This document shows positions 2,486-42,259 of a stretch of 64,000 bases of DNA, piece by piece; position 1 is the first letter of the stretch, and every line of letters starts with the position of its first letter. This DNA comes from Chloranthus sessilifolius (lineage: Eukaryota; Streptophyta; Magnoliopsida; Chloranthales; Chloranthaceae): the NCBI GenBank assembly GCA_021018995.1, contig CM037588.1:81503765-81567764 (forward strand). The letters are read 5' to 3'. The notes beneath the pieces are model-generated. The model had not been told where the DNA came from, did not search any database, and saw only the letters and a list, made by a program, of their open reading frames with translations. The translations under genes and the position numbers were made by a program.

Positions 2486-2719
2486 ATATATATATATAGT
2501 CCGTCTCGCCGGCGGTCATTAGTTATCGCTCGAGCGATCACAGAACGTTTTCTGGCATATAATTTGGCCTCGCTCGAGTGGCTTGGAGTCCTCGCTCGAG
2601 CGACCAATACACCTCGCTCGAGCGGTCACTATTGATCGCTCACGCGAGCCCTAAACACGTGATGTTTGTTATTTTATGTAGAACGCGCTCGAGCGATTGT
2701 GAAGTCTCGCTCGAGCGAG
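2486..2719 (-). promoter_or_regulatory. Element A internal motif array (TCGCTCGAGCGA) with TATA-like run, upstream of the extra ORF
   Basis: Seven copies of a palindrome with consensus CTCGCTCGAGCGAG lie between 2525 and 2719. The central hexamers start at 2529, 2573, 2595, 2617, 2639, 2688 and 2710, so most spacings are 22 or 44 bp. An ATATATATATATA run at 2486-2498 follows on the minus strand, about 200 bp before the ATG at 2290. The same motif, at the same 22-bp spacing, occurs in this element's LTR. That it is a promoter for the extra ORF is my inference. Confidence 0.6.
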
Positions 2720-2879
2720 CCCATCAGCTGATTTGCTCATCCATAAGCTCGTACCTTGTCTTCTTCCGTCCTTACGTTCGCATGAGGGGTCCGTCGTAAC
2801 AAACAGTTTAGGCTAGAAAAATATTGAAATTTATACTTGAAATTAAAGTGTTATGTGACGTCACCATTTACAAACAATT

Positions 2880-4289
2880 CTAATCGTCCCTCTCAAACAA
2901 CTTGGGGTATTGTTCTTTGACATCATCCTCCCGTTCCCATGTTGCTTCTTCGGTCGGATGATTCTTCCATCGAACAAGTACTAAGGGAATGATTTTGGTG
3001 CGTAGTACTTGGTCCTTTCTATCCAGCTCCTCTGCCGGCTCTTCTATCATAATCATGTCTTCACACATCTCTAGTGATTGACCCTCCAAAATGTGGGAAG
3101 GATCATTCACATATTTCTGAAGCATAGAAGCATTGAAAGCGTTATGTACTCGATCGAACACCGGAGGTAAGCTAATGCGATATGCAACTTCGCCAACTCG
3201 GCCCAAAACTTCGAATGGTCCAAGATATCGTGGACTCAATTTCCCCCTCTTTCCAAATCTCATCATGCCCTTCATAGGCGATACCTTGACAAACACGTGT
3301 TCTCCCACCTTATAATCGACGTTGGTCCGCTTGATATCAGCATAGCTTTTCTGTCTGCTTTGAGCCGACTAAAGCTTCTCCCTAATGATTCGGACGACTG
3401 TAGCATTCTCTTTCAGCAACTCAGGCCCTAAGACAAATTTTTCACCGATTTCCTCCCAATTGATGGGCGATTTACACCGCCTTCCGTATAATGCTTCATA
3501 TGGTGCCATTCCGATGCTTGTTTGGAAATTGTTATTATATGCAAATTCGATTAACGGTAAGTATTGATCCCACGATTCTTGCATTTCCAACATACAAGCT
3601 CTTAGCATGTCTTCTATTACTTGATTCACCCGCTCTGTTTGTCCGTCTGATTGTGGATGGAAGGCTGAACTGAAATCTAATCGTGTCCCCATCCCTTCCT
3701 AAAACTTCTTCCAGAATTTTAATGTATATAACGGATCTCGATCGGAGACAATGCTACTTGGGATTCCGTGTAGGCGTACTATTTCCTTCATATAGAGTTC
3801 CGCTAGCTTTCCTACTGTATACATCGTGTTGTAAGGTAGGAAGTGTGCTGACTTGGTTAGTCGGTCCACGATTACCTAGATGGCATTATATTTCCTTGCC
3901 GTACGCGGTAGTCCAACGATGAAATCCATAGATATTGATTCCCATTTCCATTCTGGTATTGGCAGAGGTTGCAACAATCCTGCAGGGTGTCTATGATCAA
4001 TCTTCACTTGTTGACACGTCAAACATCGTGAAACGTATTCCGCTACATCTTGTTTTAAACCTCTCCACTAGTAATTCCTTTTCAGATCTTGGTACATTCT
4101 TGTGCTACCTGGGTGTATCGCGTAACTTGATTTGTGTGACTCGTCAAGGATAGTTCGCTTTAGCTCAACATTGTCCGGAATACAGAGTCGACCCTTGAAC
4201 AATAAAGAACCATCCTCCTTGATTGAGAAATCTGATCTGATGCCCTCGGTTACATCTTGGCGACTCTTCATTAACACTGGGTCCCTCAT
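2880..4289 (-). pseudogene. Element A integrase with chromodomain-like C-terminus, broken
   Basis: Reading leftward from 4289: a remnant of the zinc-binding N-terminal region (SYAIHPGS segment), ended by a stop at about 4067 where the family usually has two tryptophans; the catalytic core with DRLTKSAHF- and SIVSDRDPL-like segments; then FHPQSDGQTERVNQ and FAYNNNFQTSIGMAPYEALYGRR (intact from 3692 to 3369); then the SH3-like region (RYLGPFEVL). It ends with IIPLVLVRWKNHPTEEATWE, the shortened chromodomain typical of Tekay-type elements, with a stop at 2880. Further in-frame stops lie near 3365, 3700 and 3880. The enzyme would have inserted element cDNA into chromatin; this copy cannot be made whole. 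Confidence 0.9.
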
Positions 4290-5917: not shown

Positions 5918-6296
5918 TCCTTGAAACCGAAATGATCTTCTTGTGTTGGGTCTGAAAATGACGACCTTGTTCTTGCAATGATCACAGAATCAGGTCGCCA
6001 ACCATCCATGCCAAGGATCACATCAAACCCCGCATGTCCAAAGAAGATCAATTTCGCTTCCAATTCATGCACCTCTAGCTCTCGAACTGCTATAATGACG
6101 GATTTGCAAGCTAACTCCGCGTTTATAAATTCTCCAGTCGGAATAGACACGGATAGGACGAAGTCCAACACCTCTGGAACAATCTTCATCCTCTTGGCAA
6201 ATCGTGGGGTGACGAATGAGTGGGAAGACCCTGGGTCTATCAACACTCTAGCGTCATATCTAAAGACACATCCTTTCTCATACATGGTTAAAGTAC
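5918..6296 (-). pseudogene. Element A protease (second exon start), broken at its end
   Basis: Exon 2 starts at 6296 after the TATAG acceptor. The region holds the retroviral-type aspartic protease signature ARVLIDPGSSHSF, with DPG instead of the usual DSG/DTG, as often seen in plant Ty3 elements, and the later FDVILGMDGW segment, where relatives have DWL. A frameshift near 5920 precedes RT. The protease would cleave the Gag-Pol polyprotein. Confidence 0.85.
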
Positions 6297-6454
6297 CTAT
6301 AGTACACATACATACATAAAATTTACACATCCTTTCACATCCCTAGTTCACAAATAAATTTAGTGTTTAGCAAAAGAAACCTACACTATTTATATTGAAT
6401 GCACCCCCTCTATCTAAAGGAATGAAATTTCTTAAATTTTAAAAAAATTCTCAC
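6297..6454 (-). other. Element A gag-protease intron
   Basis: The minus strand reads CAAG|GTGAGAATTT at the donor and TGTACTATAG| at the acceptor, 158 nt, AT-rich and T-rich, with CTAAAC-type branch-point candidates. The gag frame meets a stop 22-24 nt into the intron. Removing it joins exon 1 (…VIQ plus one base) to exon 2 in phase 1, making a Gly codon and running into protease in frame. Element B has the same arrangement and related intron sequence, which is strong support. Confidence 0.8.
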
Positions 6455-7905: not shown

Positions 7906-10096
7906 TGTGATAGCCCGATTTTCGTTACTCAAAAGTTTGCCATCAGCACGACCTTCGAGGTCATGCACCTTAAATCTAAGCGGAACATCACATAACGATT
8001 AAAAGTCAACAATTTAAATTACCACGCTTCAAATTAATTTAGTCTCCATATTTCAATAGGGTCTAGCAACTAACAGACTGTTCCAGTCTCATGCCAATTC
8101 AAGAGCAGAGGAACTACCTTGACCCATAAATGATAATCTTATCACCTTTGATAGTTTGCCAAAAGAAAAGTATAGTATTTAATTACATTTAAAAGAAAGG
8201 ACTTGACATGCCAAGCCACGAGTACTCTCTACTCACCACTTCTAAACGTAAAGCACTTCTAAAAGAATTCCTCGGGAGGAGGTTCTAACTCTTCTCCGTC
8301 TGTGAAATCCAAACCCTTAGGATCAACGTCTCTCGAAACCTGTGTTGTTGCGACATATAGTCTAAGGGATGAGCTACATCCTAGCTCAATAGGGAAACAT
8401 AAAGAACATATAGATTAATTCTGACATATATGTTGTGCAGTAAAAGAAAAGTATAGTTTATCTACTATCACTCTCTGGGAGGCAATCGAAATAACTGAAG
8501 GAAAAGGTGAACACCACTACTTACTTTACATAGTTTTATTCTTTCTCATCTTACTCGTTTAGTTGTGATTCCGGCCTAATAACTTAGCTCTTTAACTTAA
8601 ATAGTCCCCGAGCAATATAGCATCGAGCCCCGATGGAATACCCACCATCGTCGTCTAACTAGACAGTTATCAATTTTATCATTCCCTGGGAATACTGCCC
8701 CAAGCCCCTTTCTCCTAGGTGGCGGGTCTCATCGTTAAATCTACATCCTCGATGTGCTATCAGATACGGATTAACCGCCAGATCGGTCATGTATATCCCC
8801 GCCGAGTCGGGTCAGGTATCCCACCACGCCTAAACAAACCTTAAATAACAAAAATATCAAGTGTGCCTTACATGTTGTTATTCACCGTGATTGTACTAAT
8901 TTTTAATATATTAGGCCTTATCACTTTACTTTCTTTTCCCCACTGATTCTCATCTGCTCCCTTGGGATGCTACTGATATGTTGTATCATGTAGGTATTCA
9001 TCTTGTAGTTCTTGCGTCCCCTTGAGACCTCTGGCTTCATTTTCTGAAGTCAACACACACACGCTCTATTTATGTGGCATGATGAGATACTTAGTTTAGC
9101 AATTAAATCAGACACACATATGCTAAACCCAACAATGTACATGTTTCGATAAGGTTCCCTACCTCAAGGCAAAACCTGGTCCTTCTGGTAGTGATGACAC
9201 GTACCGATCTTACGTCAATCTACATTTCATGCGAAAAGACATGCCTTAGAATGGTCATTAGTGGTCACTAGCACTCCTTGAGCGCATAGTTCACATGAGG
9301 TATATTTGTATACATAAAAGAACTAAATTTTAGTTTTGGTGTATCGCTCGAGCGGTTGCTTAGCCTCACTCGAGCGACCTCTTAACCTCACTCGAGCGGT
9401 TGCGAAGCCTCGCTCGGGCGGCCTCTTATCCTCGCTCCGGCGGGTTAAAAGAGGTGTCGGATTACCTCGCCATGAGCCTACCTTTCAATATGGGTCTCGC
9501 TTTGAGCAAGCCCGAACGCACTATTCCAGTGTTATATATTCTGTCCTCGCCACATGAGACGCTTAGATCGCTTTGAGCGGAAACCTTTACTTCATGATTT
9601 TATTCAAGAAATCTATTCTATTTATTTACCTTAAATAAAATTAATCGGCCATTGCCCCTAAACATTGTAGGTTATCATTAAGACATACCTAAGCACTTCT
9701 CAAGCATTATCTCTTACCTAAATCGGCAGATTTCGTAGTCGGCTCGATCCAACGTTCGAATCCTGTTAGAAACGAAGAGATCTCTACGGTTCTGGTTCGA
9801 CCTTCTCTCCGGGTCTTCCACCGGTTTACACTCCAACAAGGCCTTAGCCTTTCCTCCCTACAAGTCTCTCTTTTCTCTTTCTCTATTTTCCTCCTCTCTA
9901 TTTAGGTTAACATGATGTTACGTAGGGGAGATACTTCTCTCCACTTTCACTTATATAGTGAAAGGAAAGGAAAAATATAATATGTTATACACATATACAC
10001 ACCGTCTGTATATGTTGACCCAGGTTTCCTTATGAACCACACATACACGTGCGTGGCATGTGGCTTATATGGTTCCGAAAATCTGGGGTTGTTACA
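7906..10096 (-). repeat. Element A 5' LTR
   Basis: A 2191-bp LTR bounded by TG…CA: TGTGATAGCCCG at one end and GTTACA at the other. The primer site lies just outside the first end. Elements B and G share the TGTGACAGCCCGA-type terminus. No ORF in it looks real. Confidence 0.93.
9343..9445 (-). promoter_or_regulatory. Element A LTR motif array (CTCGAG), exact 22-bp spacing
   Basis: Five copies of a TCGCTCGAGCGG-like motif have their central hexamers starting at 9347, 9369, 9391, 9413 and 9435, exactly 22 bp apart. The last two are mutated at the centre (CTCGGG, CTCCGG). Looser copies follow near 9495 and 9566. The array lies in the presumed U3. The same motif lies upstream of this element's extra ORF at 2525-2719. 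Confidence 0.7.
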
Positions 10097-16055: not shown

Positions 16056-16159
16056 AAGGGGTAGCCAGAGCCCTCGGTCCCTTGTAGCACCGTAGGAGAG
16101 CCTTGCGTGACTTGCTTTTGATGAGCTTTTAAAGGCTTGAATGGTGGAAAGAGGGGTTC
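16056..16159 (-). repeat. Locus C LTR 2, first piece
   Basis: Reverse complement of about 15550-15640 of LTR 1 (GCACCGTAGGAGAGCCTTGCGTG…). It is cut by element B and resumes at 29130. Confidence 0.8.
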
Positions 16160-18736
16160 TATGACAGCACGGATTTTGGCACTCCGAAACCCATGCCATC
16201 AGCACGATCCTCCAGGCCGTGCTCCATGGATATGTACAGAATATTGGTATAATAAGCAATAATAAAGAGATAAAGTAAATAATTTCATAAGCGAGAAAAG
16301 TTAATGTGCCCAATTGACACATACAAAAGACAGTTCTACTTTCATGCCACTACATGAACAGAGAACCGATCCGAGCCATCGGTGATAAACAGATCACCCC
16401 AGATGCTTCGCCAAAAGAAATAAATCAATTTAATTACATTGTATGATAAAAATAAAGGCTTGACATACCAAGCCGTACAATCTGCTCACAAAAACTCTCT
16501 CTCAAAGTACTCAGCGGAGTCTCCTAGAAGAAGTCCTCGGGAGGAAGCTCCAACTCGTCCCCGGAAACGTAATCCGAAATACCCGGATCTACGTCTCCCG
16601 AAGCCTCAGCTGCTACTAATAATGGACCTGCGACGTATAGTCTAAAGCTGGTGAGCTACATCCTAGCTCAATAGGGAACAACACAATGAACATATAAATC
16701 AAAATGTCACATATATTCTATGATATTCTAAGCATGATGTGTCTATGCATTTGCTACAAAACAGTTTAAAAGATGGTGACTTGCATTTCAAGTTTACTGG
16801 TAATTTACATGTATTACTTTACTGTTGATTTACCATGAATGACACTGAATAGGCCTAAAGTAAAACTTAAATCTTCAACTTAAGTAATCCCCGAGCAATA
16901 TAGCATCGCGCCCCGATGGAATACCCACCATCGTCGCCTAAATAGATAGTTGTAAAAATGTATTCCCTGGGAATACTACCAAGCCCCTTTCTTAATAGGC
17001 GGCGGGGTTAAATCTCAACTCAACATCCCTGGGATGTACTTACTGTGTATGGATAGACCTCCGCACTGGTGTACTGATTGACCGCCGTACCGGTCACGGA
17101 TATCCTACCGCGTCAGTCATGGGTATCCCGCCACATCGGTGGGGTATTCTAAACAAACCTCAAATAACAAAAATAATATGTGCTTTACATATAGTTGTTC
17201 ACCATGTAAAGCGCTATCTTATATCAGTTAGGCCTCAACAGTAATTATTCAATCATATGTACATCCCTAGGATGTTTAATTTACTCGCATCATAATGATG
17301 CTTTTATTACTTTCTCATCCCCTGGGGATGTCTCATTCTCATTAGATTACATGATCTCAGTTACTCGCATCACACAGATGCCTTCATCACATTCTTGGTG
17401 TCACACACACCCATTTTCACAAAGCTTTTCATAGTTAAAACATTTTCAATTCTAATAAATATATCACTACATACATGCTCTTGCAATTAAAGTACATGTT
17501 CAAGGTGTTCCCTACCTCAAGTCTCTGATGGTCCAAGCATCAAGGTCCCACGCGGCTCCTTGTGCTTGCATTCACATGTACTACCTATGGTACATCACAA
17601 CACATGTAACACATCACTATAGATGCAATAGAGAAGGCCTTAGACCTTCCATGAACCTCCAAGTCTAAGTCAAGAAGTCAAGTGAATCTGCCAAAATCGA
17701 TTAATCGATTCCCAAAATTGATTAATCAAAACTTAGATCGATTAATCGATTCCAAAAATTGATTAATCGAAACTCAAATTGATTAATCGATTCCCAAAAT
17801 CGATTAATCGAAATCCAAAATCGATTAATCGATCCCAAATCGATTAATCGAAATCCTCAACATAGTAAAGTCGATTCTCAAATCGAGTGTTCAAAGTCCA
17901 AAATCGATTAGTCGATTCTAAATAGATTAATCAAAATTAAAAATCGATTAATCAATTTCCCAACTCGATTAGTCGATTTCCCCAGGCCTTGTTTCTCTAG
18001 CCACTGGAGGTACCCAGTCGATTAGTCGATTTCCAAATCGATTAATCGAAATCCAATTCGATTAATAGAAATCGGGCTTTCTTGACTTTTCAACTTCTGG
18101 GCCAAAATTGATTAATCGAACCTCTTTTTCGATTAATCGATTTGGCCAGATTCTGCCCCCTTTCGGGCTGTTCTTCCAAAACCCATTCCTTTTCTTTTTC
18201 GTTCTTTTTCTAAGTCTTCAATCTACGATATTAACTATGCTAGACTGAATTTAACTCATCAATTCTCTAGGTATTAAAATCTAATACAATATATCTCAAT
18301 AAATCCTTTAAAGGGTTGATTTGTTGGGTTAATGGCTAGGGTTCCGTCTATTCGCTTCAACGGCTCCTCAAGCGTTGAATCAGCATTCAATGCTCTAATC
18401 TCCTCTTGATTTGCATTAACTCCTAGCCTCAATAACTCTCCTTGTTTTCTCCCTCTCTCTCTCTTCTTAACTCTCTCTTCAACAACCAAACAAAAGGGAT
18501 TTTAGGGTTATTAAACTCTTATATCTTCCTTCCTGTTTCGGTGTTAAGCGTATACACCAGAGATAGGTGTATGTAGCTCTAAATCAATACCATTCACTAC
18601 ACCTAGGTCACGTTTGCATCTCATCAGTCCATCACTTCATGTATTCAATGTTTGACCATCACTGGGTCAAAACTACGACCAACCGGACATGGATCCCAAG
18701 GTCAAAGTTAAATGCTCAATTTCTCGAGATATTACA
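16160..18736 (-). repeat. Element B 3' LTR
   Basis: 2577 bp, matching 26611-29124 throughout. It ends ATATTACA against the polypurine tract. The motif array 17697-18142 is longer than the one in the other LTR, and copy number is the main difference between the two. Confidence 0.95.
17697..18142. promoter_or_regulatory. Element B LTR motif array (TCGATTAATCGA), 20-21 bp spacing
   Basis: The palindrome AATCGATTAATCGATT and variants occur here well over a dozen times. In the first, regular part the central ATTAAT starts at 17700, 17721, 17741, 17762, 17782, 17803, 17824 and 17843, spacings of 19-21 bp or about two helical turns. Later copies are irregular and some read GATTAGTCGATT. Confidence 0.8.
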
Positions 18737-18749
18737 TTCTCCCCACCCT
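18737..18749 (-). other. Element B polypurine tract
   Basis: AGGGTGGGGAGAA on the minus strand, directly before the TG of the 3' LTR, almost the same as in element A. Confidence 0.85.
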
Positions 18750-19100: not shown

Positions 19101-20459
19101 TCAGGGCGTTGAGCCAGATGCATCGGCCATAGAGGTACCCCCGTGGAAAATGGTACTCGTGTGAAAAACTGTCCGACCCGCAGTCCACTTCGCCTCCTGT
19201 GCGAGGCGCTGCTGGTAGTCCAACGGATAGATGTACTGTAGGGTGTGGAACATCAAGAAGTCCATCCGTCGGTTCATCCTCTCGTTGTTGGCCTCCATCC
19301 GGGCCAACACATCCTCGATAGTGGGTGTGGCAGCTTGCCGGTAAGAAGACGTGTGGCATGGCCACTGATCACGATGGCGGCGTAGGTGAAGCCATGCAGG
19401 TGCCCTCAGCTGGTGGATCGACGGGGTGTGCTTCCCCCACTGGTGGGTCCTAATGTGGTGGTGGTTCTACTGGTGCTGCCGCTGCTGGGCCCTGAGCTGG
19501 TAGGGTCTGCTTGAGTAAGTTGTAGCTACGGCTCCATGAAGCAATGGAGAAATGCTTCACACGATCCATAGTCCTCTCCTCGTGGGGCAAAACGGTGTAC
19601 TCTGGAGTGTCTGAGTAACACTCCAGCATGCTCGAAATGAGGTGAGCATATAGCATTTTTTCTTTAGGCCTTAAATTGCCCTTCATCAACTTTCTCTTTA
19701 TGTAGACCATCCCCTTTAGGATGATCTTCGTTGCATCAAACCAACGGCCATAGAAGGCCGCGTAAAGTGCCTGCGGCACTAACTCCACCCGCTCAGTGTC
19801 GTGGCGCATCGGGTAGAGGTTGTACTTGATTATGGAATCAAGTATCCACATGTAATGGGGGAGATCGACCCTCCTAATGGACGATCCTGACCCCTTTTTC
19901 CCTTTGGTCATACGTGTCATTATTTATTCAAATTTCACCTCTTTCGCAAAGGGTGGGAAGAGGGTGGTCTCGGGCACGAAGTCTAAGTAACATTCGAGGA
20001 CCTCGTGGATGTGGCGACGAGTGAAGGTATAGTCGCGACCCTCAATGGTGGTCGTGACTACGTCGTCGGTAGGCCCCTCCTTCAACCCTTGGTAAAATAG
20101 GCGGACCCGCGGATTGGTTTTAAAAGGTTGCGGAGGTTGGCCTTTACTAGGTAATTTTGAACCCATTGGGTCTCGCCCGCCACATCGGGGTTTGTAAATA
20201 GTTCCACATCGAAGATAAACTCATCTTCGATGGTCTTAGCCGCCCACCACTCATTTGGTTGGGGGACATTCTCAAGTGGTGGTGGAATCAGTGAAGCTTG
20301 GCGCGAAGACGCGCTCATCGAACGGGATGTGGTATCCGATGCCGACGGTGATGGAGTCCTCATAGGTGATGGGGTAGGTGGTGGCGGTTTGGTGTTCTTA
20401 CGCCGGACCGGGAGCTTAGACGTTGCCTTCTTCGAAGACAAACGTGTTTTAGGCGGCAT
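19101..20459 (-). pseudogene. Element B extra ORF: putative plant transposon protein domain, frameshifted
   Basis: ATG at 20459 opens a basic N-terminus (MPPKTRLSSKKATSK) with a proline/serine linker, then PNEWWAAKTIEDEF, matching the WWG region of element A's ORF. A frameshift near 20100 leads to VRLFYQGLKEG. After a stop at 19921-19923 the same frame continues with LPHYMWILDSIIKYNLYP, FYGRWFDATKIILKGMVY and MLYAHLISSMLE, each aligning with element A. A further stop lies at 19450. Beyond it a different frame (19310-19101) gives a charged helix (MLARMEANNERMNRRMDF), similar in place to element A's helical tail. Biochemical function is unknown. It lies downstream of integrase, with this family's motif array just upstream. 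Confidence 0.72.
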
Positions 20460-20700
20460 TTTGTGACAAATATTGTAAAAACTAGGGTTTTTATAGCTTG
20501 AAACGGAAAGAAGAACGAAAACTAGGGTTTTACCTTAGTTTTTAAAACTAGGTTTTTGATCAGAATGTATGTGGTTTGATCCAAAATCGATCCGAAACAC
20601 CAAAAACCCTAGCTCTCCAAGTCTCTTGAAGGAGAACATAGTAAAGCGTGCAAGCACCAAAAATTAATTTGATTTCGAATGGGGAGAAATCCCCCTCGAT

Positions 20701-21300
20701 TTACATATATAGGCCCCAATTAAATTAATCGATTAATCGAGTTTCAAAACTAGGTTCAGCCGTGCGAAATTGATTAATCGATTTATAAAATCGATTAATC
20801 AAAACTCACAATCGATTAATTGAAACCATTTCGATTAATCGAAATCGTGGTCACTTAAAATTCAAACTTTTCCAGCTCACTGGCGCATGCCAGTCGATTA
20901 ATCGATTCTTCAAGTCGATTAATCGAAATCTCAAAATTGATTAATCAAATTTCACTTTGATTAATCGAAATCATAAGGTTCTTCAATTTTTCTAAAATTC
21001 TCAGGTAACTCAATTAATCGAACCTCCAGATCGATTAATCGAAATCCCAAATCGATTAATCGAATTCTTCTTCGATTAATCGAAATCGTATAAATTCTTC
21101 AAATTTTTCTAAATTCTTAAGTTACTTAATTAATTGAAATCCAAAATTGATTAATCGAAACCTAATTCGATTAATCGAAATATCACTTCTTTAATTTCCT
21201 GAACCTTCATTAAATTTCTCCTCACTAGCGCATGCCAGTCGACTAATCGACCAAAATTGATTAATCGAATTCCCCAAATCGATTAATCGGTTTTGATCAG
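20701..21300 (-). promoter_or_regulatory. Element B internal motif array (TCGATTAATCGA) with TATA-like box, upstream of the extra ORF
   Basis: About 20 copies of the same palindrome as in this element's LTR. ATTAAT starts include 20773, 20794, 20815, 20834; 20897, 20918, 20940, 20960; and 21013, 21034, 21055, 21075, again in steps of 19-22 bp. On the minus strand TATATATGTAA (20711-20701) follows the array, about 245 bp before the ATG at 20459. Promoter function is inferred. Confidence 0.65.
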
Positions 21301-26608: not shown

Positions 26609-26610
26609 AC

Positions 26611-29124
26611 TGTGACAGCCCGAATTTTAGCACCCCGAAACCCATGCCATCAGCACAATCCTCCTGACCGTGCCCCTTGGATATGTACGAAACTTTGGTA
26701 TAACAAGTAATAATAAAGAGATAAAGAAAATAATTGCATACGCGGAAAAAGTTAATGTGCCCAACTGACACATACAAAAGACAGTTCTACTTTCATGCCA
26801 CTGTATGAATAGAGAACCGATCTGAACCAATGGTGATAAACAGATCACCCCAGATGGTTCGCCAAAAGAAATAAATCAATTTAATTACATTATTTGACAA
26901 AAATAAAGGCTTTACATACCAAGCCTTACAATCTGCTCACAAAAACTCTCTCAAAGTACTCAGCGGAGTCTCCTAGAAGAAGTCCTTGGGAGGAGGCTCC
27001 AACTCATCCCCAGGTACGTAATCCGAATCACTCGGATCTACGTCTCCCGAAGCCTCAGCTGCTGTTGACAATGGACCTGCGACGTATAGTCTAAAGGGGG
27101 TGAGCTACATCCTAGCTCAATAGGGAACAACACAATGAACATATAAATCAAAATCTCACATATATTCCATGATATTCTAAGCATGATGTGTCTATGCATT
27201 TGCTAGAAAATAATTTAAAAGATGGTGACTTAAATTTCAAGTTTACTGCTAATTTGCATGTCTTACTTTATTGTTGATTTATCATGAATGACACTGAACA
27301 GGGCTAAAGCAAAACTTAAATCTTCAACTTAAGTAATCCCAGAGCAATATAGCATCGAGCCCCGATGGAATACCCACCATCGTCGCCTAAATAGACAGTT
27401 GTAAAAATGTATTCCCTGGGAATACTATCCAAGCCCCTTTCTCAATAGGCGGCGGGGTTAAATCTCAACTCAACATCCTTGGGATGTGCTTACTGTGTAT
27501 GGATAGACCTCCGCACTAGGGTACGGATTGGCCACCGTACCAGTTACGGATATCCTCCCGCATCAGTCGTGGGTATCCCGCCACATCGATGGGGTATTCT
27601 AAACAAACCTCAAATAATAAAAATAACATATGCTTTACATGTAGTTGTTCATCGTGTAAAATGCAATCTTATATCAGTTAGGCCTCAACAGTAATTATTC
27701 AATCATATGTACATCCCTGGGATGTCTAATTTACTCGCATCACACTGATGCCTTTATTAGTTTCTCATCCCCTGGAGATGTCTCATTCTCATTAGATCAC
27801 TTGATCCCAGTTACTCGCATCACACAGATGCCTTTATCACATTCTTGGTGTCATACACACCCATTTTCACAAAGCTTTTCATAGTTAAAACATTTTCAAT
27901 TCTGATAAATATATCACTACATAAATGCTCTTGTAATTAAAGTACATGTTCAAGGTGTTCCCTACCTCAAATCTCTGAAGGTCCAAGCATCAAGGTCCCA
28001 CGCGGCTCCTTGTGCTCGCTTTCACATGTACCACCTATGGTACATCACAACACATGTAGCACATCACTACAGATGCAATAGAGAAGGTCCTAGACCTTCC
28101 ATGAACCTCCAAGTCTAAATCAAGAAGTCAAGTGAATCTGCCAAAATTGATTAATCGATTCCCAAAATGGATTAATCGAAACTCGAATCGATTAATCGAT
28201 TCCCAAAATTGATTATTTAAAACTTAATTCAATTAATCGAAATCCAAAATCGATTAATCAAAATCCTCAACATAGTAAAGTCGATTCTCAAATTGAGTGG
28301 TCGAAGTTCGAAATCGATTAGTTGATTCCAAATCGATTAATCAAAATGAAAAATCGATTAATCGATTTTCCAACTCGATTAGTCGATTTCCCCAGGTCTT
28401 ATTTCTCCAGCCACTGGAGGTACCTAGTCGATTAGTCGATTTCAAAATCGATTAATCGAAATGGCATCCTTGACTTTTCAACTTCTGAGCTAAAATCGAT
28501 TAATCGAATCTCTTTTTCGATTAATCGAATTGGCCAGATTCAGCCCCCTTTCGGGCTGTTCTTCCAAAACCTATTCCTTTTCTTTTTCCTTCTTTTTCTA
28601 AGTCTTTAATCTATGATATTAACTATGCTAGACTGAATTTAACTCATCAATTCTCTAGGTATTGAAATCTAATACAACATACCTCAATAAATCCTTTGAA
28701 GGGTTGATTTGTTGGGTTGGTGGCTAGGGTTCCATCTTTTCGCTTCAACGGCTCCTCAAGTGTTGAATCAGCATTCCATGCTCTAATCTCCTCTTGATTT
28801 GCATTAACTCCTAGCCTCAATAACTCTCCTTGTTTTCTCCCTCTCCCTCTCTTCTTAACTCTCTCTTTAACAACCAAACAAAAGGGATTTTAGGGTTGTT
28901 AAATCCTTATATCTTCCTTCCTATTTCGGTGTTAAGCGCATACACCAGAAATAGGTGTATGTAGCTCTAAATCAATACCATTCACTACACCTAGGTCACT
29001 TTTGCATCTCAGCAGTCCATCACTTTATGTATTCAATGTTTGACCATCACTTGGTCAAACCTACGACCAATCGGGCACGGATCCCAAGGTCAAATTTAAA
29101 TGCTCAATTTCTCGGGATATTACA
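26611..29124 (-). repeat. Element B 5' LTR
   Basis: 2514 bp, TGTGACAGCC…ATTACA, matching 16160-18736. Confidence 0.95.
28147..28530. promoter_or_regulatory. Element B 5' LTR motif array (TCGATTAATCGA)
   Basis: Same array as in the other LTR, with fewer copies. ATTAAT or decayed forms start at 28150, 28171, 28191, 28212, 28232 and 28253, spacings of 20 or 21 bp, then become irregular. Confidence 0.78.
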
Positions 29125-29129
29125 AGTTC

Positions 29130-29669
29130 TAACCACTAAGGCTTACTAGCTAAGAGGTAGAAAAGGGAGGCAAATGGATAGCACACACCTAACCTAGAGA
29201 CTTTTTAGGAAAGGTAAGGCAAGGAATGAGGTTTTGGAATTCTGAAATTTGTATGAGAAATGGTGCACCAAAGGAAGAAAGATCTTCTCACTTTAAGCTC
29301 TTTCTCTCTTAGGCAAAAATTCTCAACTCTTAAACCAAGGGGGGGGCTTTATTTTTAGGAAAATGGTGGATTAGGAGATCACTCAGGAGCTAAATGGGTT
29401 TAGCAATTAGGTAATCTCAAATCTAAGGTTTTCTAAGGTTTTTGGAGTCTTGAAATGTGTGAGAAAGTCCTCCAATGGTGGATGATGGGGTGAGGCTTTA
29501 ACACACCCCAAGGTCAAGGTGGTCAACAAGTCAAACCCCAATCATGATTTTCGGGGCAAAATCCAGAGGTTATAGTTCATATGCCTGGTGCAACTAATAG
29601 TTGTGCCAGGCAAATGTACAGTAAAACAATTTTAAAAGGTGCCTGAAAGTTGGTCTGCGAGGGTGGGCC
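29130..29669 (-). repeat. Locus C LTR 2, second piece
   Basis: Continues 16056-16159 beyond element B and is the reverse complement of about 15030-15540 of LTR 1. One palindrome copy (29583-29611) is present, then the piece is cut by element D at the GGGCC duplication. Confidence 0.85.
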
Positions 29670-32047
29670 TGTTAAGCACTGATTTTTGCCACTTTCTACA
29701 CCTTTAAACCTGGCTTTTGCTAAGCCTTAGAGCTATTTATAATCACTTTTAGCTTGTTTTGCATTTTAAGGAAGATAGTACAACATAGTGCAGAAATCTA
29801 GTTAATAAGTGCCACAAAGATCAGAAATAGAGCCATTCATTGGGGCTGACACAGACGAAGCCCATGATTTGAAAGAGATCCTATCGAGAAGTGCTGTATT
29901 GGCAGCAGCAACAAAGGCCCATCCTGTTGACTTGTTGATACATTTTGCAGCAGTAGTAGAACCTATCGAATGGTTCAAGAGAAGTAAAGCTGAAGTGCTC
30001 TTGCATTGCAGGCCGCTGATGCTACTGGAAATAGAACATATCGATAGGTCATGAAGATCCTATCGAGCAATTCCTCAATGCATCAATAGAACCTATCGAA
30101 TGATTCAATCCATGAATCTAGTGACTTGTTCAAGATTAAAGGAGGACCTATTGATCTACACTTATAATTGGAATCAAAACCTGTCAAACTACTGAGCACT
30201 CCAACCTGTCGAACTCCTCCAAACCTCTATGGATTGAACCTATCGAATAGAACTGCTGCTGAAGACTGAACCTATCGAATGGAACTACTACTGGAAATTT
30301 AACCTATCAAATGGAGCGATTACATCCTATCGAGCCTTTCCTGCATCAACCTATCGAATGGATTCTAAACCTGTCAAACAATGTTTTGTACCTATCGAAT
30401 CCTCCAAAGAACTGCCATGCATCCTATCGAATACAAGTCTCCCAACCTATCGAATGCATAAGCTATCAACCTGTCGATTGGTTCATGAAGCTGGAGCTCA
30501 ACCTATCGAATGGTTGTAATTCAACCTATCGAATGGTTCAATCCAACAACTTGTCGAAGGGTTCCTTGGACTGCAAGCTTCATCCTTTCGAAATGCATCA
30601 ATTTGAACTTATCGAATGGTTCACTTCAGCAACCTGCCAACCACTACCTTTAACCTATCGAATGCATTTGCTGAAGCCACAATCCTGTCGATAGCTTGAG
30701 GTTGCAGCAGCAAAGATCAATGGACGGCAGCGGCAAATCTGGGAACTCTAATGCACAGGAAATTCTGCACATGGGTGTGAACTAATTTTTGACGGGGAAC
30801 AAACTAGCTTCAGCTGGACACAAACAAAACTAGATCCCTATCTCTTCTCTGATTTGTTGAAACTCTTAAATAAGGATTAAGCTTAAACTGAATTCCTCTC
30901 TTCTGATTGGCTGCAACTCAAAGCACATGGATCACTGCATACCTATAAATAACCATCTATTTTGTTGTTTTTCTTCAGCAAGGAAAGTAGGAATAAAGGA
31001 ATAACCTAAGTTCTCCTTAGCTCATTTAGGTTTAGTTTTAGGTTTTATTTTTCTTTTTTTCTCCCCCCTTCTCTCTCTAATCCAGTCTGTTGGATTAGAT
31101 CTAGATAGTAGCTCAGATCTGGTTTGTAATTATAATTTTGGCATGAGGAAATGTGGTTCGATGCACAAATTACAGATCTCGGAACAATGTTATTGTAAGT
31201 TATTTTTTATTAAAGCAATAAATTGTTGATTTTAAAGCTTAATTAAATCTAAAGATCTTGTGGTCCCATTAGATTCTCGACCGAATTTGTGTAGATGGGA
31301 CTAGCCCACCCACTTAACTGGTAGATCTCTTGATGACCATCTGATTTCCCTGGGTTTGATATGCCTGTGGGTGCCTGAGCTTGTGGCCTTGCATCCATAG
31401 CATCTGTAGTGATTATCTTGTTTTGATTAAAACCTTTGATTTGGAGGAAATCTATTGGATGATCTGTGACCATTTAAGTGGACAGATCATAGCCTTAGAC
31501 CAATCCAAACCATCAGAATGGAGGAAATCTATTGGATGATCTGTGATCATTTAAGTGGACAGATCATAGCCTTAAGATCAATCCAAACCACCAGTCTATA
31601 TCAGATTCTTATACCTTGCATTTGTGCTTATAGCCAAATGAAGGATGGCTGCATATCCTCAGATCTTGATCTATTTTGTAATGAAAGCCAGGCCCTAGCT
31701 GTCTATTTCTCCTCATTTTATATTTTATTTTACCATTCATCTTCCTCCATCTCTTAGTTTAGTTTTATTTCAGTTCTATAAATTAGATCTAGTGACACCC
31801 GAAAAGCTCTGTTTCTTCTTAGAATTGCTAGATCTGTAGTCAGATCTGAAGGTCTACTATACACCTTTTAGGTTTAGATCATTACTCCTTGTGGGACAAA
31901 CTCGCACTTATTAAAACTTGCTACAAAGGATCCTGTATCTTGCAGGTCTAGGATATTTTAGATGTGCTGAATCAATCCTCTGTTTTACTTTGATTTTATT
32001 TTACTTTTTATCATTATATAATAATCAGCACCTAAAATTCCCCAACA
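29670..32047 (+). repeat. Element D 5' LTR
   Basis: 2378 bp, TGTTAAGCACTG…CCCCAACA. It contains the TATCGA motif array, a TATAAATA box at 30944-30951 and an imperfect tandem duplication of about 72 bp at 31440-31580 (AGGAAATCTATTGGATGATC…). Confidence 0.95.
29961..30690 (+). promoter_or_regulatory. Element D 5' LTR motif array (CCTATCGAATGG / CCTATCGATAGG) and TATA box
   Basis: More than 20 copies of (A)CCTATCGAATGG or decayed forms. At 30039 and near 30685 the fully palindromic centre ATCGAT is seen, so the original word may have been CCTATCGATAGG. Spacing is irregular (22-36 bp). TATAAATA follows at 30944. Confidence 0.75.
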
Positions 32048-33520
32048 AGTTTTTTACACCGCTGCCAGAGAGTTTTGATCTAGATAGTATATCTGAGTTT
32101 TTCATTTTTGTAGATCTGATTCTTATTTTGTAGATCCGAGTTTTATTACTATTTTTGCTTTAAACCTACACTTTGCATTCCAAGTGCTTGATTAAATTTC
32201 TGTTGTGGTTTTTGTATAGAAACCCAGTTTTAAAACTGTAGAAATTCTGATTTTTCTGAGTTTTTATTTTCTGCCTTTTGCATTTTGCATTTTTTCATTT
32301 TTGCATAAATGAGGCTGCAGTTTGAGTTTTTCTTTGTGTTTTGTCAATATGCTTGAATAAGGTACTGCTGCAGTTGTTGAATTTTTACAAATCTGCAGCT
32401 GCTACCAAACGAGGAGCAAATAGATTGCTGTAGGAGCAGATCTGCTTGAGTTTGCATCCCCTTCTCCTTTGCATTCATTTTCTATTTTTAAATTCTTTTG
32501 ACCAGCAGTTTTGTTGTGTTTGCTGTCATTCTAATTTTTGTATAACTCAACAAAACCAAATATATAAAAAAAAGAAGAAAATGAAAATACAAATTCCAAT
32601 TTCTTATTATTTTTTAGCAATAGTAAATAAGGGCTCTTGTTGAGCCAGAGCTGATCCAAAACAAGTAAAAAAATAAAAAATTATAAAAACATAAAATATC
32701 TTTCAGATGGGCTGTTATTCTTTGTTTTTATTCATTTTTTTCCCATCTGGACCTGCTGAGATTATGGTTTTTCATTTTGAGGAATCATGTAGGATAATGA
32801 GCAGTGGATCATATGTTGTTTTAAATATTCAATGGACCCACTAATTTTATTTTCCTTCGAGATTCTTTCATCAGTAATGGGTCTCAGTTGTGTATGAACC
32901 CTGCTTTTAATATGTGTTTTCATGCTTCATTATTTAGAAATTCTTTTTTATTCATAGACATCATCAACATAGGGGACAGTCTTATGAATCTTGCTTTTCA
33001 CTGTATGTTATTCCTGCTGATCATTTTTATAATCACTTAGATTCATAGGTATTTGATTAGCTCAGGCTTTTGAGGTTTTCTTTGGGCTTAGGGGATTTAT
33101 GATTGGCAGTAGGATTTTCTGCTTTAGGAATTTTAGTTTAAAATTCTATTTTTAGATCACTGATTTTTCCTTCTTAGGTTAATGTGTCCTAGTTTTACTG
33201 ATCTTCTACAGTTTTCTATGATTATAGTTAGTTTCTAACTTTGTTTTCCTATTTTTATCTGCAATTCCGGTTTTGTATCTGCATTTTTCTGTTGTTGTAG
33301 TTTTGTATTCAGTTCCTTACTATTGTTTTGCTATTTTTCCTGTTATTGGCAGTAGTTTTTTTCTTTGTATAACAGTTCTTCTATTTTTCTGATTCATATA
33401 TTCAGTTTTTAGCTTTTATTTTGTAGCATTTCTAGATTTATTTTATAGATTTTTCTATTTTATTAGTAATTTCCAGTAGTTGTATAACATTTTCTCCATT
33501 TTCCCGCTCATATATTCAGT
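32048..33520 (+). other. Element D leader region with degenerate primer site, non-coding
   Basis: TTACACCGCTGCCAGAG at 32054-32070 is a decayed form of TGGCRCCGTTGCCGGGG, the Asp-tRNA primer site seen intact in element E. The rest is T-rich with many TTTTTAGTT-type words. No gag is present where Athila elements have it. Confidence 0.75.
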
Positions 33521-34203: not shown

Positions 34204-34390
34204 ATCAAGCTCTCGAGTTAGCAGGATCACTTGGACCGTGAAAATTAAGCTCTCGAGTTAGCAGGATTACTTGGACAAGATATCAAGCTCCCGAGTTAGC
34301 GGGATCACTTGGACGAGATATCAAGCTCCCGAGTTAGCAGGATCACATGGATGAGATATCAAGCACCCGAGTTAGTGGGATCACTTGATT
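34204..34390. repeat. Element G 3' LTR tandem repeat, five units (CCCGAGTTAGCGGGATCAC)
   Basis: Five imperfect units of about 31-40 bp, each with CTCCCGAGTTAGCGGGATCA and then CTTGGAC. CCCG and CGGG are complementary around a 6-bp spacer, so each unit can form a small hairpin. The other LTR has six units (54515-54731). Confidence 0.85.
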
Positions 34391-37009: not shown

Positions 37010-37014
37010 ATACC
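37010..37014. other. Target-site duplicate of element E (ATACC), left
   Basis: ATACC directly before TGTTAAGACC, repeated at 50322-50326 after CCGCCAACA. Confidence 0.92.
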
Positions 37015-39546
37015 TGTTAAGACCTGAAAAGTATCACTTTTTACCCCTTAACTTAACCCTTGATTAGACCCATAGCCACCTAATAAGTCCTTGTTAAATG
37101 TTTTATGTACGTAGTACCCAGCAGTGAAATAAGGCCAGGAATCCTACTAAAAAGCCTGTTTTGGCACCATAAGTCCCTCAGAAGGATGAAGTCTGAATCC
37201 AGACCTGAAAATGAGCCTCGCACAGTCCAGCTGAGCTTCCCAAGACTCTACAACAACTTCTCGTGCAGATGATTGACTGAAGAGCTTCAGAAACATAAAC
37301 TCGTGCAGCTCTCCTGAAGCTCAAGAATAGAACACCTTCGCAGTATCGCGCAGTTCAAAGCAGACTTCTCTCAACCACGCACAGTTCACTCAGAACGGTT
37401 GAGAAGAGAGAGCTTCAGAAGACACCTCGCACAGCTATCGCGTAGTCACCGCGAGATGCAACTATCAAAAGAGAACTCCTCGCGCAGTTCTAGTGCCATT
37501 CAAGAAGAAAGCATCCTTACGAAGGCAAAGCCACCCTTGTGAAGATCAGTTAAGACATGGAACTTTGCGCAGTTCAGAACTCATCAAAGCCTCGCGAGGT
37601 GACTCGCGAAGCCCAGTGAAGATAAGTGCTCGCGAAGTTCTCGCGCTATTCAAATCTATCTTTGCAAAGATCAACCTCGCGACTGCTTAAGCTCCAACCC
37701 CGCGACATCTAAGGCTCTGATGTCCACTCAACCTCGCGACTGCCTGAAGAGCAAACCAAGCCAACCTCGCGAAGGCAGAAGCTTCAATTTTAAATCATCC
37801 TAGTGAAGAACAAAACCTACCACGCGACAAGTCTGGGAAACAATGGCTACTTAGCGAAGCTCTGAACCTCAAACTTCCATCTCTTCAGCTGAGGACTTTC
37901 TGGGAATTTCCAGCAATTAGGGCATGCACTCCCACACTCAAATCTCTGTGCACGCGCCCTAAGGCATCAAAGGATTACTGTTCAGCCAGGTGGCATCGTT
38001 AAAATTAGGGTTTCCTAACCCTAATGCGCTGCCACACCACTACTATAAATACCCACACTTAGCTTAGGTTTGGAGAACTTAGACTTTCTTTTCTTTCTAC
38101 ATCCTGGAATAGCTAGGAACCCATCTCATTTCTGGGAGACCTGATCTGAGATCATTTAGTTTTTCTTTTTGTAGTTGTAAGTAGCTTTCTTTTTCTCTTT
38201 CCTTCTCTCCATAGTCCAACACTTGCTGGCTATGTCTTTGTGTATTTTAAACTAGATTAATGAAAGTTCTGTAATAAGATCTATACTTTGTGGGATTTGT
38301 GATTGAATGTGAGATGCTCTGTGCAAGGCTGCTGCCTTGTGATCCCCCATTGCTTTGGCTGTGTTTCAAAGCAATAGAGGACTGATTCTAAGGGCCACTC
38401 AGATCCAAGTGACTTGTGTGTCTGGGCTATCATAGTCCTATACAGCCTTAGCCCCACCACAGGACCCACTAGATATGAAATCCCCATGGGAGCTTGAGCT
38501 GGTAGCCTTGTGACCATGGTGGTAGCAGCGATATTCTTGTTTTGTCTTCGGCTCCGTGAGGAGGATAACCTCTAGGATAGTCTGTGACCATTTAAGTGGA
38601 CATATTATAGCCTTAGGGTGATTCTAATCCACCGATCCAAGATGGATCCTTCTTCTTTACACCTGAGCTTGTAGAAGCCTGGTGGGAGATTGTACAGAGG
38701 CAGACTCCCCTATATTTGTATAGATCCACCATCAGATGTTGGATCTGATTTGGTTATAGAGATTGTCGGCTGGTGACTGGAGCATTATAGCCTCACTCAA
38801 GCAATGGACAGCTAGATCGAAGGTTGTACTCAATCTCTTGCTGGTTCTATGTGTCTGGGCTATCATGGTCCTATACAGCCTTAGCCCCACATATAGAGCT
38901 TTAGAGGTTGAGGTTCCCTATGGGTTCTTGAGCTGGTAGCCTGGATGAAATAGTGTCTGCAATGATTTACTGGTTATGTTTTGACCCATCCCTGGATAGT
39001 GGTTCCCCTATGGGATAATCTGTGACCATTTGAGTGGACAGGTTATAGCCTTAAGGGTGGAATCATGGAAGAGTGATGGGTTGAATCCTTTCTCCTCAGT
39101 GGTGATAATGTAGCCACTAGATAGGATTTCTATAGCATCAGATCTGAATCTGAGTTATAAAACTCCTCTGATCTGGGTTCAATAACATACTTCTCACCCT
39201 TTTATATTTATTTTCTACACTCCATCCATCCTCTCAACCCTTTCTGTAGTTTAGACATTAGAATACTTAGAATAAGTGACCTTAAACTCCCCTCCTTTTA
39301 GGATTGCCAGATCTGTAGTCAGATTTGGAGGGACTACTAGAGATGGCTCCTTCGGAGCTGTAGATCACCTTTCCCTGTGCGACAAACTCTTACTTATCAA
39401 AACTTGCTACAATGGACCCTGTATCTTGCAGGTTTAGGATTTCTTAGTTGTGCTGATTCCATCTCCTGTTTTACACTTTCTTTGATTTTCAAATGACTTT
39501 CACCACCAACCAATAAAGTAAGCACACACTCAGAAATCCGCCAACA
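37015..39546 (+). repeat. Element E 5' LTR
   Basis: 2532 bp, TGTTAAGACC…CCGCCAACA. It has a motif array at 37205-37830 and a TATAAATA box at 38044-38051. Downstream are repeated modules such as GTGACCATTT…GGACA…TTATAGCC and CTATACAGCCTTAGCCCCA (twice each), shared in part with element D. Confidence 0.95.
37205..37830 (+). promoter_or_regulatory. Element E 5' LTR motif array (CTCGCGCAG / CTCGCGAAG) with TATA box downstream
   Basis: About 20 copies of CTCGCGCAGTT, CCTCGCGAAG and variants, with palindromic core TCGCGA or GCGCGC. Spacing is irregular. The TATAAATA box at 38044 lies about 200 bp further on. The same word recurs inside the element at 41800-41985. Confidence 0.75.
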
Positions 39547-39552
39547 AGTTTT

Positions 39553-39570
39553 TGGCACCGTTGCCGGGGA
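39553..39570 (+). other. Element E primer binding site (Asp tRNA)
   Basis: TGGCACCGTTGCCGGGGA, one change from the classic Athila TGGCGCCGTTGCCGGGGA complementary to Asp tRNA, six bases inside the LTR. Confidence 0.9.
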
Positions 39571-39918
39571 AAGATGATCTATTAGTAGACCCTTAGTTTT
39601 TGTATTCTTAGTATTCTTTGCACATGTGAATAATTGATACTGCTGACATAATTTTGTATCTTTCTTGCAGATCTAGACAGCAGCAGTGAAGGATAGTTGG
39701 ACTGCAAGTGGAGCTTAGCTACCTCTGTTTGCAAACTCTCTGACTTTTAAAGCTCTGTCTATCTTTCTTAAAAAAATTTCTAGCAGTATCTAGGATAGTT
39801 TTAAATGTATTCTTTGAATGGCTGTAATCTAGTTAGATAAATTTGTTAGTTGTACAATTATTCTTTTGCAATGTGCCTGTAAGAAGCTTTCCTTGCTGTT
39901 GGTGTGCTTGTATGCTAG

Positions 39919-41442
39919 GGAGGAGATCCTCACTCGCTAGAGCCTCTTAACCCTGAGTTAGAAAGGGGAAGGAGACTTAGAAGAGACAGGCACACCACAG
40001 GAGAGCCCCAAAGTGAACCTGTGACAGTAATTATGGGTGAAGAACAATCCAGAACCCTCAAGGAGTTGAATGCTCCGGATGACTATAACTCCCCTTTTAG
40101 CATTCAATTTCCTGATGTTCAGGGGAACTATGAAATAAAAACTTCAATCATCCAGATGCTGCCACCTTTCCTTGGGCTTAGCAAGGAGGACCCTTACAAG
40201 CATATTGACCAGTTCTTGGCCTTGTGCACCACTTTTAATATCACTGGTTTGGGACCTAAGGCTACTAGGCTCAGACTCTTTCCCTTCTCTCTGAAGGATA
40301 GGGCCAGTACCTGGCTGACCACTCTTCCCAACATTAGCATTGCTTCATGGAACGACCTGCAGACCAAGCTCCTAACCAAGTTCTTCCCTGAGACCAAAAC
40401 TAGCCAGTTGAGGAAAGAGATTCTTGCGTTTGCTCAATCCCCAACTGAGGATTTTAACCAGTCCTGGGATAGGTTTAAAGAGATGCTCAAACAATGCCCC
40501 CACCGCAAGATCCCAGAGTGGTAGCTTGTACAAAGCTTCTACAATGGTATTGATGAAAAAAATAGAGATATGGTCGATGCCTCTTGTGGTGGATCCTACA
40601 TGCACAAGACTGCTGAGGAGGCATGGGAATTGTTTGAGGTGATTAGTGAGAATGCTTTTCAAAAGCCATCCCTGGCAAGAACTAGTCAGGAATCTGAGTC
40701 AAAGGTGGGGCCTGCTGCTGGGTCAAAAGGAAAAGTTTATGAGGTGTCTGAGAACAATGACCTACAGCTACAGATGGCAAACCTCTCTATGAAGTTCGAC
40801 AAATTATTGACTGTGATGCAACCCAGAAGGGCTGCTCATGTGGCGGAGGCATGTCTGATATGTCAGTCCCCACAGCACATAGTGGAGGAATGTCCATCTG
40901 CAGGGCAATTTCCTGAATTGGTTTTGAAACATGCTGCTGCTGCTCAATCTTATGGCCAGCAACAATCTGGGGGCTACAATAGGTAGCCATATGGATTCCA
41001 GCACCAAAATGCTGGTTACCAATGGAGAGACCACCCAAATCTGAGGTGGAGGCAAGACAACTACATGCAGCCCCAGCAGATGTTGGCCTTACCACAAAGG
41101 CCACAGCAGCAGTTCAATCAAGGGAATGCCCCTAGGTCTACCTTCCAGCACCATTAGCAGCCATATCAGCAGCAAAATCAGTTGGTCTCATCCCCTTCTC
41201 ATCCTAAAAATGTTTCTTTTGAGTCTGGACTTCATTGCAAAACTTGGGTTCCTTGGCTCAGACTGTGAACTCTCATGGTCAGAGCATCAAAAAGATGGAA
41301 GAGCAGATTGGCCAACTAGCGAATACCTTAGCCAAAAGAGAAGAGGGAAGGTTGCCCAGTCAACCAGTGGTGAATCCCAAGGGCCAATTTTTGATTGGTG
41401 AAGGATCCTCAGACCCTGAAGGGGATCTTTCATTGAATTGAT
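39919..41442 (+). pseudogene. Element E gag (Athila type), with stops and a frameshift
   Basis: The frame is open from 39919, and its first codons (DPHSLEPLNPELERG) look like an Athila gag N-terminus, so translation probably began upstream in the ancestor; the first ATG now is at 40033. The capsid core includes FLGLSKEDPYKHIDQFLALC, RLRLFPFSLKDRASTWL, FFPETKTSQLRKEI and FNQSWDRFKEMLKQCPH. A TAG at 40522 interrupts before VQSFYNGID. A zinc-knuckle remnant reads CLICQSPQHIVEECP, with CLIC…H…C spacing. After stops at 40984 and 41155 a frameshift leads to the C-terminal helix IKKMEEQIGQLANTLAKREEG, typical of this family just before protease. Protease is absent. Confidence 0.88.
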
Positions 41443-42259
41443 GATAAGAACTGTGCACCTTTGTATAATATATACTTTACAGTTTAGAGGAATTTGTAGC
41501 AATCTTATTGGGATCTGAGTTTAGTGCTTTATGCCTACTTTTATTCCTGTTCCCCTTGTTTGCTAATATCAAGTGATTGAATGATAATGGTAGTATTTGA
41601 ATGCTTTTCATGATGTGTGAATTTAATGCTTTGAGAGTATGGGAATTTGTGAATGCTTTATAATGCTTATGGGTGTCCCTGGAAGAGAGACTGTGAGAGA
41701 ATCCACCCACAAAGTCAGGATCAAAAGGCTGACTAGTGGGTGAGTGAATTCTAACTCTGTTAAGCCATCGCAGGGTGGTTCTGAATAATGGGTTTGGTCC
41801 CCTCTCGCACAGTTCATAAAGAACTACCTTGTTTTGCTGCCGCGAGCTTCAGATATAACTGGGTGGGCTGCCTCGCGCAGTTTAAATGAACATCTAATCT
41901 CGTGACCCATTCATGCCCATCCAGCGAGCGGATATTTTCAAAGCGCGCCGAGCCTCGCGATTTTTAAATCCCACCCCGCGCTGCTTTTCTTTACTACTTT
42001 CTCTTTCCTCTCCTGCCAGTGAAACCCTAGCTCCCATTCCTCTCAATCTCTCTCCTCCAGCTTCCTGTCTATAGTTCATTGCTCACTTTGAAATTTTGGA
42101 TTTTTGTTCTTAAAGCTTCCATCAACAGTTGCCCCCTGCTAGGAGCTCTTGTGATCTACCCTGCGTTAAATTGAACAGAACCTTAGCTTTTAGGGTTAGA
42201 CTCAGCTCTTAATCTTTCCTTTCCAAATTTCAACTGCACACTCACCAAGGAGAATCTTG
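41443..42259 (+). promoter_or_regulatory. Element E spacer where pol is missing, with internal motif array
   Basis: No pol sequence is seen. From about 41800 to 41985 the element's own LTR word returns: CTCTCGCACAGTTC, CCGCGAGCTTCAG, CCTCGCGCAGTTTAAA, TCTCGTGACC, GCGCGCCGAGCCTCGCGA and CCGCGCTGC. The array ends about 275 bp before the ATG of the extra ORF. There is no clear TATA box, only TTTTTAAATCC near 41962. The position relative to the ORF is the same as in elements A and B. Confidence 0.55.

Follow-up and report, generated by a model that had tools for sequence, protein, structure and literature searches.

The stretch of Chloranthus sessilifolius DNA studied here (contig CM037588.1 of assembly GCA_021018995.1, positions 81,503,765 to 81,567,764 of the forward strand), hereafter called the window, is 64 kb of plant-type DNA in which, judged by domains and layout, long terminal repeat (LTR) retrotransposons are nested in each other. 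Three of them, named A, B and E, carry an extra open reading frame (ORF) ahead of the 3' LTR, and arrays of short family-specific words occur both in their LTRs and just upstream of this ORF. We analysed the ORFs and the arrays as the two parts of a candidate self-recognition system.

The elements

Elements A and B are encoded on the minus strand. The 5' LTR of A spans 7925..10096, its start being given by the LTR pair and its end at 7925 placed by eye on a primer-binding-site-like sequence. The 3' LTR, found by self-comparison, runs from 541 past the window edge and is 97% identical to the 5' LTR, a value that concerns the common part only. The LTRs of B, also delimited by self-comparison, lie at 26610..29136 (5') and 16159-18746 (3') and are 90% identical. 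In A, Pfam detected gag, reverse transcriptase (RT)-RNase H and a chromodomain, all above the cut-offs; in B it detected RT-RNase H and a chromodomain below cut-off, and gag was recognized by its similarity to A. We read both as chromodomain Ty3/gypsy elements, a placement that rests on these domains.

Element E is on the plus strand, sits inside the LTR of another element, and has an LTR pair of about 90-94% identity by self-comparison. Its gag region (39919..40986, plus strand) gives a Retrotrans_gag match in the first of two frames, which is the only evidence on the superfamily of E. A limited search for pol in this element, by eye (51 ORFs), by Pfam (4 of the 51 ORFs) and by tblastn with the RT-RNase H of A, found none. 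Element E (39560-47852) is perhaps non-autonomous, having retained a candidate gene for a reader of its words. Its primer binding site presumably resembles that of Athila elements.

The extra ORFs and their predicted fold

The extra ORF of A (1163..2290, minus strand, ATG at 2290) encodes 375 amino acids. A frame that overlaps it at 993-1460 bears an acidic C-terminal stretch, so that the reading frame of A is probably disturbed near its end. The corresponding region of B (19411..20459, minus strand, ATG at 20459) is broken by at least one frameshift near 20100 and by a stop located between its two open stretches (20082-20534 and 19450-19923). In E, the ORF (42260..43123, plus strand) begins with an ATG at 42260, has an in-frame stop at 42347-42349, and is open over 42350-43123. 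The three ORFs are homologous, the product of A sharing 35% identity with that of B (E=1.7e-38) and 28% with that of E (E=3.7e-20); the next best match of the A product in the window has E=0.03. Downstream of the extra ORF of E, we also noticed Pro/Ser/Ala-rich frames with Lys/Arg clusters (44857-45984), which may encode a second product or form a long tail at the C terminus.

When the model of the A product was submitted to a PDB fold search, VANC21 in complex with its target DNA ranked first, and a second look with the model of the E product likewise gave VANC21 as the first match. Among solved structures, the predicted fold of both products is closest to VANC21, an anti-silencing protein encoded by Arabidopsis VANDAL transposons. 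A search of a viral fold library yielded nothing at E under 0.9. Chains of Tas, the foamy virus transactivator, were absent from the matches listed from PDB or the viral fold library, with no direct comparison made.

As to sequence, the products of A and E resemble PF20167 (Transposase_32) below its cut-off (30.9 and 29.5 bits, respectively, for a gathering threshold of 45), and the open B piece gives no match. A single-sequence homologue search returned one homologue for the A ORF and none at E 0.001 for the E ORF. A profile search retrieved 24 protein homologues, 21 of them from JGI and 17 with a precomputed PF20167 match; one (P0001) reaches 45.7 bits, another (P0017) comes from Tetracentron sinense, and a third (P0024) is a fragment fused to reverse transcriptase sequence. 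At E up to 10, PF20167 is matched by 23 of the 25 aligned members. No DUF1985 or DUF287 appeared in the Pfam scans at E up to 10, which gave PF20167 and stray matches only and were run with HMMER filters that lose most weak matches. Relatives of the extra ORF accompanied by DNA were sought with a seven-homologue alignment in viral contigs (17 pattern stretches) and genome contigs (21), and with the A product itself in plasmids; none was confirmed in these collections, which may omit records near the window's genome.

Word arrays in the LTRs and ahead of the extra ORFs

Words were counted over the whole window on both strands, every word being derived from the same window as that in which it was tested. 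The A word, TCGCTCGAGCGA, has 12 sites with up to 2 mismatches and all 12 are in A (7 ahead of the ORF, 4 in the 5' LTR, and 1 in the in-window part of the 3' LTR). At the same tolerance, 49 of the 50 sites of the B word, TCGATTAATCGA, are in B (19 ahead of the ORF, 13 and 17 in the LTRs), the stray being at 49029. The E word, CTCGCGCAG, searched with up to 1 mismatch, has 18 of its 19 sites in E (9 and 7 in the LTRs, 2 ahead of the ORF) and a stray at 19197. Exact matches number one for the A 14-mer and three for the E word, one of these being internal.

The arrays of A, on the minus strand, consist of CTCGCTCGAGCGAG-type words at 2504..2720 ahead of the ORF, with a spacing of mostly 22 bp, and of 5 words at 22-bp spacing at 9343..9445 in the 5' LTR. 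In B, also on the minus strand, TCGATTAATCGA-type words often spaced by 19-22 bp occupy 20696..21290 ahead of the ORF, and the LTRs hold 15 words at 28147..28528 (5') and 18 at 17697..18140 (3'). The arrays of E are on the plus strand: word or matrix matches cover 37217..37860 in the 5' LTR and 48054..48582 in the 3' LTR, and a small, degenerate array with 4 sites over threshold lies ahead of the ORF at 41804..41983.

De novo counting of 12-mers ahead of the ORF gave 7 in A, for a maximum of 3 in 20 dinucleotide shuffles, and the count for B was 22, for a maximum of 7 in as many shuffles. Matrices trained on LTR arrays only recovered the pre-ORF array of their own element, with 7 sites in A, 19 in B and 4 in E, values that were reached by 0/1120, 0/1017 and 0/1033 background windows of equal length, respectively (overlapping windows). 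On foreign pre-ORF regions, the same matrices gave zero sites, apart from a single marginal one in E with the A matrix; 38/1097 background windows reach that value. Conversely, matrices trained on pre-ORF arrays and applied to the LTRs of five elements (A, B, D, E and F) found 6, 31 and 14 sites in their own A, B and E. The few strays were 3 sites of the A matrix in D, 2 of the A matrix and 1 of the B matrix in E, and 2 of the B matrix in F; the E matrix had 0. For E this reverse test is partly circular, as the 4 training sites had been picked with the LTR-derived word. Within the window, each of the three elements has dense family-specific arrays in its own non-coding DNA that are near-absent from other families.

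Two further elements have arrays in their LTRs. All 11 sites of the D word are in the LTRs of D, and 22 of the 23 sites of the F word (CCTATCGAATGGAAC type) are in those of F (29667-32100 and 59562-61994), with a stray at 52418. Comparison within the window found no extra-ORF match in D, and F is likewise without an extra ORF there. In the LTRs of D, at 34204-34387 and 54508-54728, a 38-bp unit is repeated in tandem and shows, by eye, an imperfect dyad (CAAG..CCCG..CGGG..CTTG). A minus-strand ORF of D (52863-53525) has two CCHC zinc knuckles and no further gag domain match. The initial annotation had placed arrays in the LTR and ahead of the ORF of A, B and E, where all are indeed present; it was also right that the words differ between families and match within an element, that the extra ORFs are homologous and, for D and F, that LTR arrays occur without an extra ORF in the window.

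Divergence between related elements

Gag (76% protein identity between A and B), RT-RNase H (84%) and the integrase end (70%) are better conserved than the extra ORF (35%). We scored regional DNA alignments of the two elements against 10 shuffles per region. Four regions barely align, namely the first 1.2 kb of the LTR (z-score 1.1), the pre-ORF region (3.2), the extra ORF (6.2) and the 3' untranslated region (UTR, 8.3), against z-scores of 39-93 in seven others; gap-free percent identity is 72-80% even where the alignment barely holds, so that only the z-scores separate the regions. The four divergent regions adjoin one another at the 3' end of the element, which makes the word, the reader gene and the LTR start one module. 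This module may have changed fast as a unit or been replaced in one swap event, and the data fit both. Fast divergence of protein and word beside conserved mobility genes was found in one pair, A and B. A joint change of word and ORF, which the initial annotation had set as a check, was seen in this pair, in which gag-pol stayed similar, and in this pair only. Elements E and F, which have later LTR parts and 3' UTR pieces in common (66-85% identity) and different words, would be a second, weaker pair of this kind.

Form of the arrays and putative promoters

The words of A and B are perfect palindromes. The E word lacks this symmetry, and its 18 sites in E all have the same orientation; the term palindromic, which the initial annotation had applied to all three, holds for A and B and misfits E. 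The spacing in A and B is near two DNA turns; the words of B and those in the LTR of A are clearly in helical phase, the phasing being weaker ahead of the ORF of A (p 0.015) and absent in E. When B sites were anchored on the left half-word, the right half-word contained 1.33-1.41 bits per position, compared with 0.37-0.69 for the next nine spacer positions.

Ahead of the ORF, the array of A is followed by a TATA-like stretch at 2498-2490, with an additional TATA-like match at 2561. That of B ends at a TATA-like site at 20711 (others at 20787, 20546 and 20495), and that of E at a mere TTTAAAT (41963), a TATA-like match also being present at 41881. Between the chosen TATA-like site and the ORF start there are 0 ATGs in A, 0 in E and 1 in B. 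Within the 5' LTRs, all TATA-like matches of A (10069, 9957 and 9538) precede the array, the array of B is flanked by one match upstream (28911) and one downstream (27673), and the array of E precedes the TATA-like site at 38044. This variable position hints, and only hints, that the words do not act as a fixed core promoter box. In CpG content, several array bins rank with the highest of the window, the pre-ORF region of A being at the top, alongside some coding stretches. By eye, GGTAAG/GGTATG-like sites were seen between the TATA-like site and the array in the LTRs of A (9700-8870) and B (28690-27610), and LTR arrays so placed might fall in a 5' leader intron.

Discussion

We propose that A, B and E each carry a two-part self-recognition module, made of a reader with a VANC fold and of arrays of the element's own word, that serves anti-silencing; on balance we favor this proposal, with considerable room for error. 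The reader would be a nuclear DNA-binding protein encoded between pol (gag in E) and the 3' LTR, and its landing sites would be the family's own word arrays in the LTR and ahead of the ORF's own internal promoter. It would bind these dense arrays cooperatively, as is probable given the spacing of about two helical turns in A and B, and the palindromic words suggest dimers in these two elements. The bound reader would strip or keep off silencing marks at both promoters, leading to a positive feedback with the ORF and the LTR both on. Internal promoter activity, nuclear entry, word binding and anti-silencing are what we infer here. The predicted fold lends strength to the finding, and the best-supported claim is that the product may work like VANC; we do not claim that it is a VANC, because the carrier and the sequence domains differ.

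Two observations weigh against this proposal. The de novo count ahead of the ORF of E was 3, for a maximum of 4 in 20 dinucleotide shuffles, so that the array was not singled out, and it was accepted on matrix tests alone after k-mer discovery had missed it. Moreover, neutral tandem repeats could likewise yield the helical phasing of the words.

The product could instead resemble the Tas protein of foamy viruses, binding both arrays and activating the LTR and the internal promoter, with no involvement of methylation removal. Tas is encoded by a 3' accessory gene with its own internal promoter, and this single protein serves, and binds, both the LTR and the internal promoter (PMC4929722). Likewise, the extra ORF lies toward the 3' end as an accessory gene, with a possible promoter of its own and the same words at both places, and an acidic stretch ends the overlapping frame of A. 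The likeness to foamy viruses, which are animal retroviruses, is one of layout only. However, the nearest solved fold for our models is that of the anti-silencing protein VANC21, the position of the LTR arrays relative to TATA-like sites varies between elements, and CpG-rich arrays fit a chromatin role. We therefore find such a transactivator unlikely.

The closest precedent for the layout, which the initial annotation did not name, is that of the Sireviruses (Ty1/copia), whose element-specific words in the LTRs are repeated before an extra gene (Bousios 2010, PMC2829016). Internal motif copies occur in 9 motif-bearing elements with ENV and in none of 4 without ENV, and D and F here similarly lack them; six other ENV-bearing Sireviruses lack the motifs (PMC2829016). 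The 2010 paper favored host factors, and an explanation near this view is that the arrays serve as binding sites for transcription factors of the host, the extra ORF being an env-like or other gene that shares a host factor at its promoter. The palindromic words of Sireviruses, which likewise lie in the LTR and before the ENV-like gene, have PLACE matches to stress factors (PMC2829016), and the arrays of D and F without an ORF are as this explanation would have them. Yet related elements of one genome have unrelated words (A/B and E/F), which is unexpected from a fixed set of host factors, and the predicted fold of the ORF is that of a self-recognizing transposon protein, so we give this explanation a small chance, below that of a transactivator. 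The systems also differ in that A and B are Ty3/gypsy by their domains, not copia (E being known by Retrotrans_gag only), that the words here have no CGG-CCG core, a core also missing from the Sirevirus Tnd-1 (PMC2829016), that the E word is non-palindromic, that LTR arrays here sometimes follow the TATA-like site, and that the ORF product has a VANC21-like predicted fold.

It is highly improbable that the arrays have a neutral origin, in which tandem repeat growth and a template switch brought the arrays and a new ORF into the 3' block with no common reader. The divergent block does extend without a break over the pre-ORF region, the extra ORF, the 3' UTR and the initial 1.2 kb of the LTR, and the LTR and internal arrays of B match over stretches of 37-57 bp, spacers included. 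Nevertheless, the words are better kept than the spacers, and arrays in both regions are found in three elements here as well as in nine ENV-bearing Sireviruses (PMC2829016). Equally hard to credit is that the arrays act as RNA, whether as hairpins feeding small RNAs, as packaging signals or as targets of an ORF product that binds double-stranded RNA: Sirevirus palindromes are small RNA hot spots (PMC5311732, PMC10760457) and extra-ORF proteins of maize and sorghum Tekay were compared with a double-stranded RNA-binding protein (PMC11728184), but the E words are not palindromic, the nearest fold to the modeled products is that of a DNA-binding protein solved with DNA, and the words of A and B hold a two-turn DNA spacing, which tandem repeats alone could produce.

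We return to the proposed anti-silencing module, for which the VANDAL/VANC system of Arabidopsis is the main comparison. As in VANDALs, an element-encoded protein goes with dense arrays of short family-specific words in non-coding parts of its own element, divergence is faster in word and protein than in the mobility genes, and VANC21 is the first fold match for the modeled products of A and E. The sites of VANC21 lie in one orientation (PMC5735166), as do those of E. In contrast, VANDALs are Mu-like DNA transposons and the carriers here are LTR retrotransposons with arrays in the LTRs and ahead of the extra ORF; a Pfam match to DUF1985/DUF287 is absent here at E up to 10; the words of VANC21 are non-palindromic and those of A and B palindromic; and demethylation, known for VANC, is here a candidate role read from sequence and fold. 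The VANC-like self-recognition that the initial annotation had guessed from motif layout has thus gained a top fold match in A and E, and lost the palindrome as a common feature.

Other plant elements share parts of this layout. The Athila-type extra ORFs of sunflower are sense ORFs toward the 3' LTR with partial PF20167 similarity (PMC11728184), but the available part of that paper reports no word arrays and makes no comparison with VANC; its follow-up considers that LTR-element factors may act on element methylation and cites VANC (PMC12844716). Grande gene23 and Retand TRP28 encode a nuclear or possibly DNA-binding accessory protein, Grande with its own promoter and Retand with family-specific tandem repeats between pol and the 3' LTR (PMC11963269, PMC7264820). 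Unlike the ORFs studied here, theirs are antisense and have different domains, and words shared by the LTR and the ORF promoter are not described in the parts of these papers at hand. The open-access literature, to the extent covered and with subscription papers outside its scope, reports no words common to the LTR and an extra ORF in Ty3/gypsy elements and, VANC21-structure papers being also outside the scope here, no VANC-like fold for PF20167 ORFs. A wider reading is that, in plant LTR retrotransposons, PF20167-type extra ORFs are distant structural relatives of VANC, and that modules of word and ORF make up a widespread anti-silencing system encoded by the elements themselves, which Mu-like DNA transposons and LTR retrotransposons would share or have exchanged and to which Sireviruses would have a counterpart. 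We advance it tentatively, as something short of an even chance.

The available literature describes the function of the extra ORFs of plant LTR retrotransposons as unknown and regards the label 'env-like' as controversial. With the fold match to an anti-silencing protein in complex with DNA, and with near-private landing sites in the LTR and ahead of the ORF, the question of these ORFs becomes one that can be tested directly. If the proposal is true, LTR retrotransposons, which make up a major share of plant genomes, would counter silencing in a sequence-specific way of their own, and word-reader pairs could serve as tools for targeting demethylation. If the module is also widespread, it would account for many of the 'env-like' genes of plant retroelements that so far lack an explanation.

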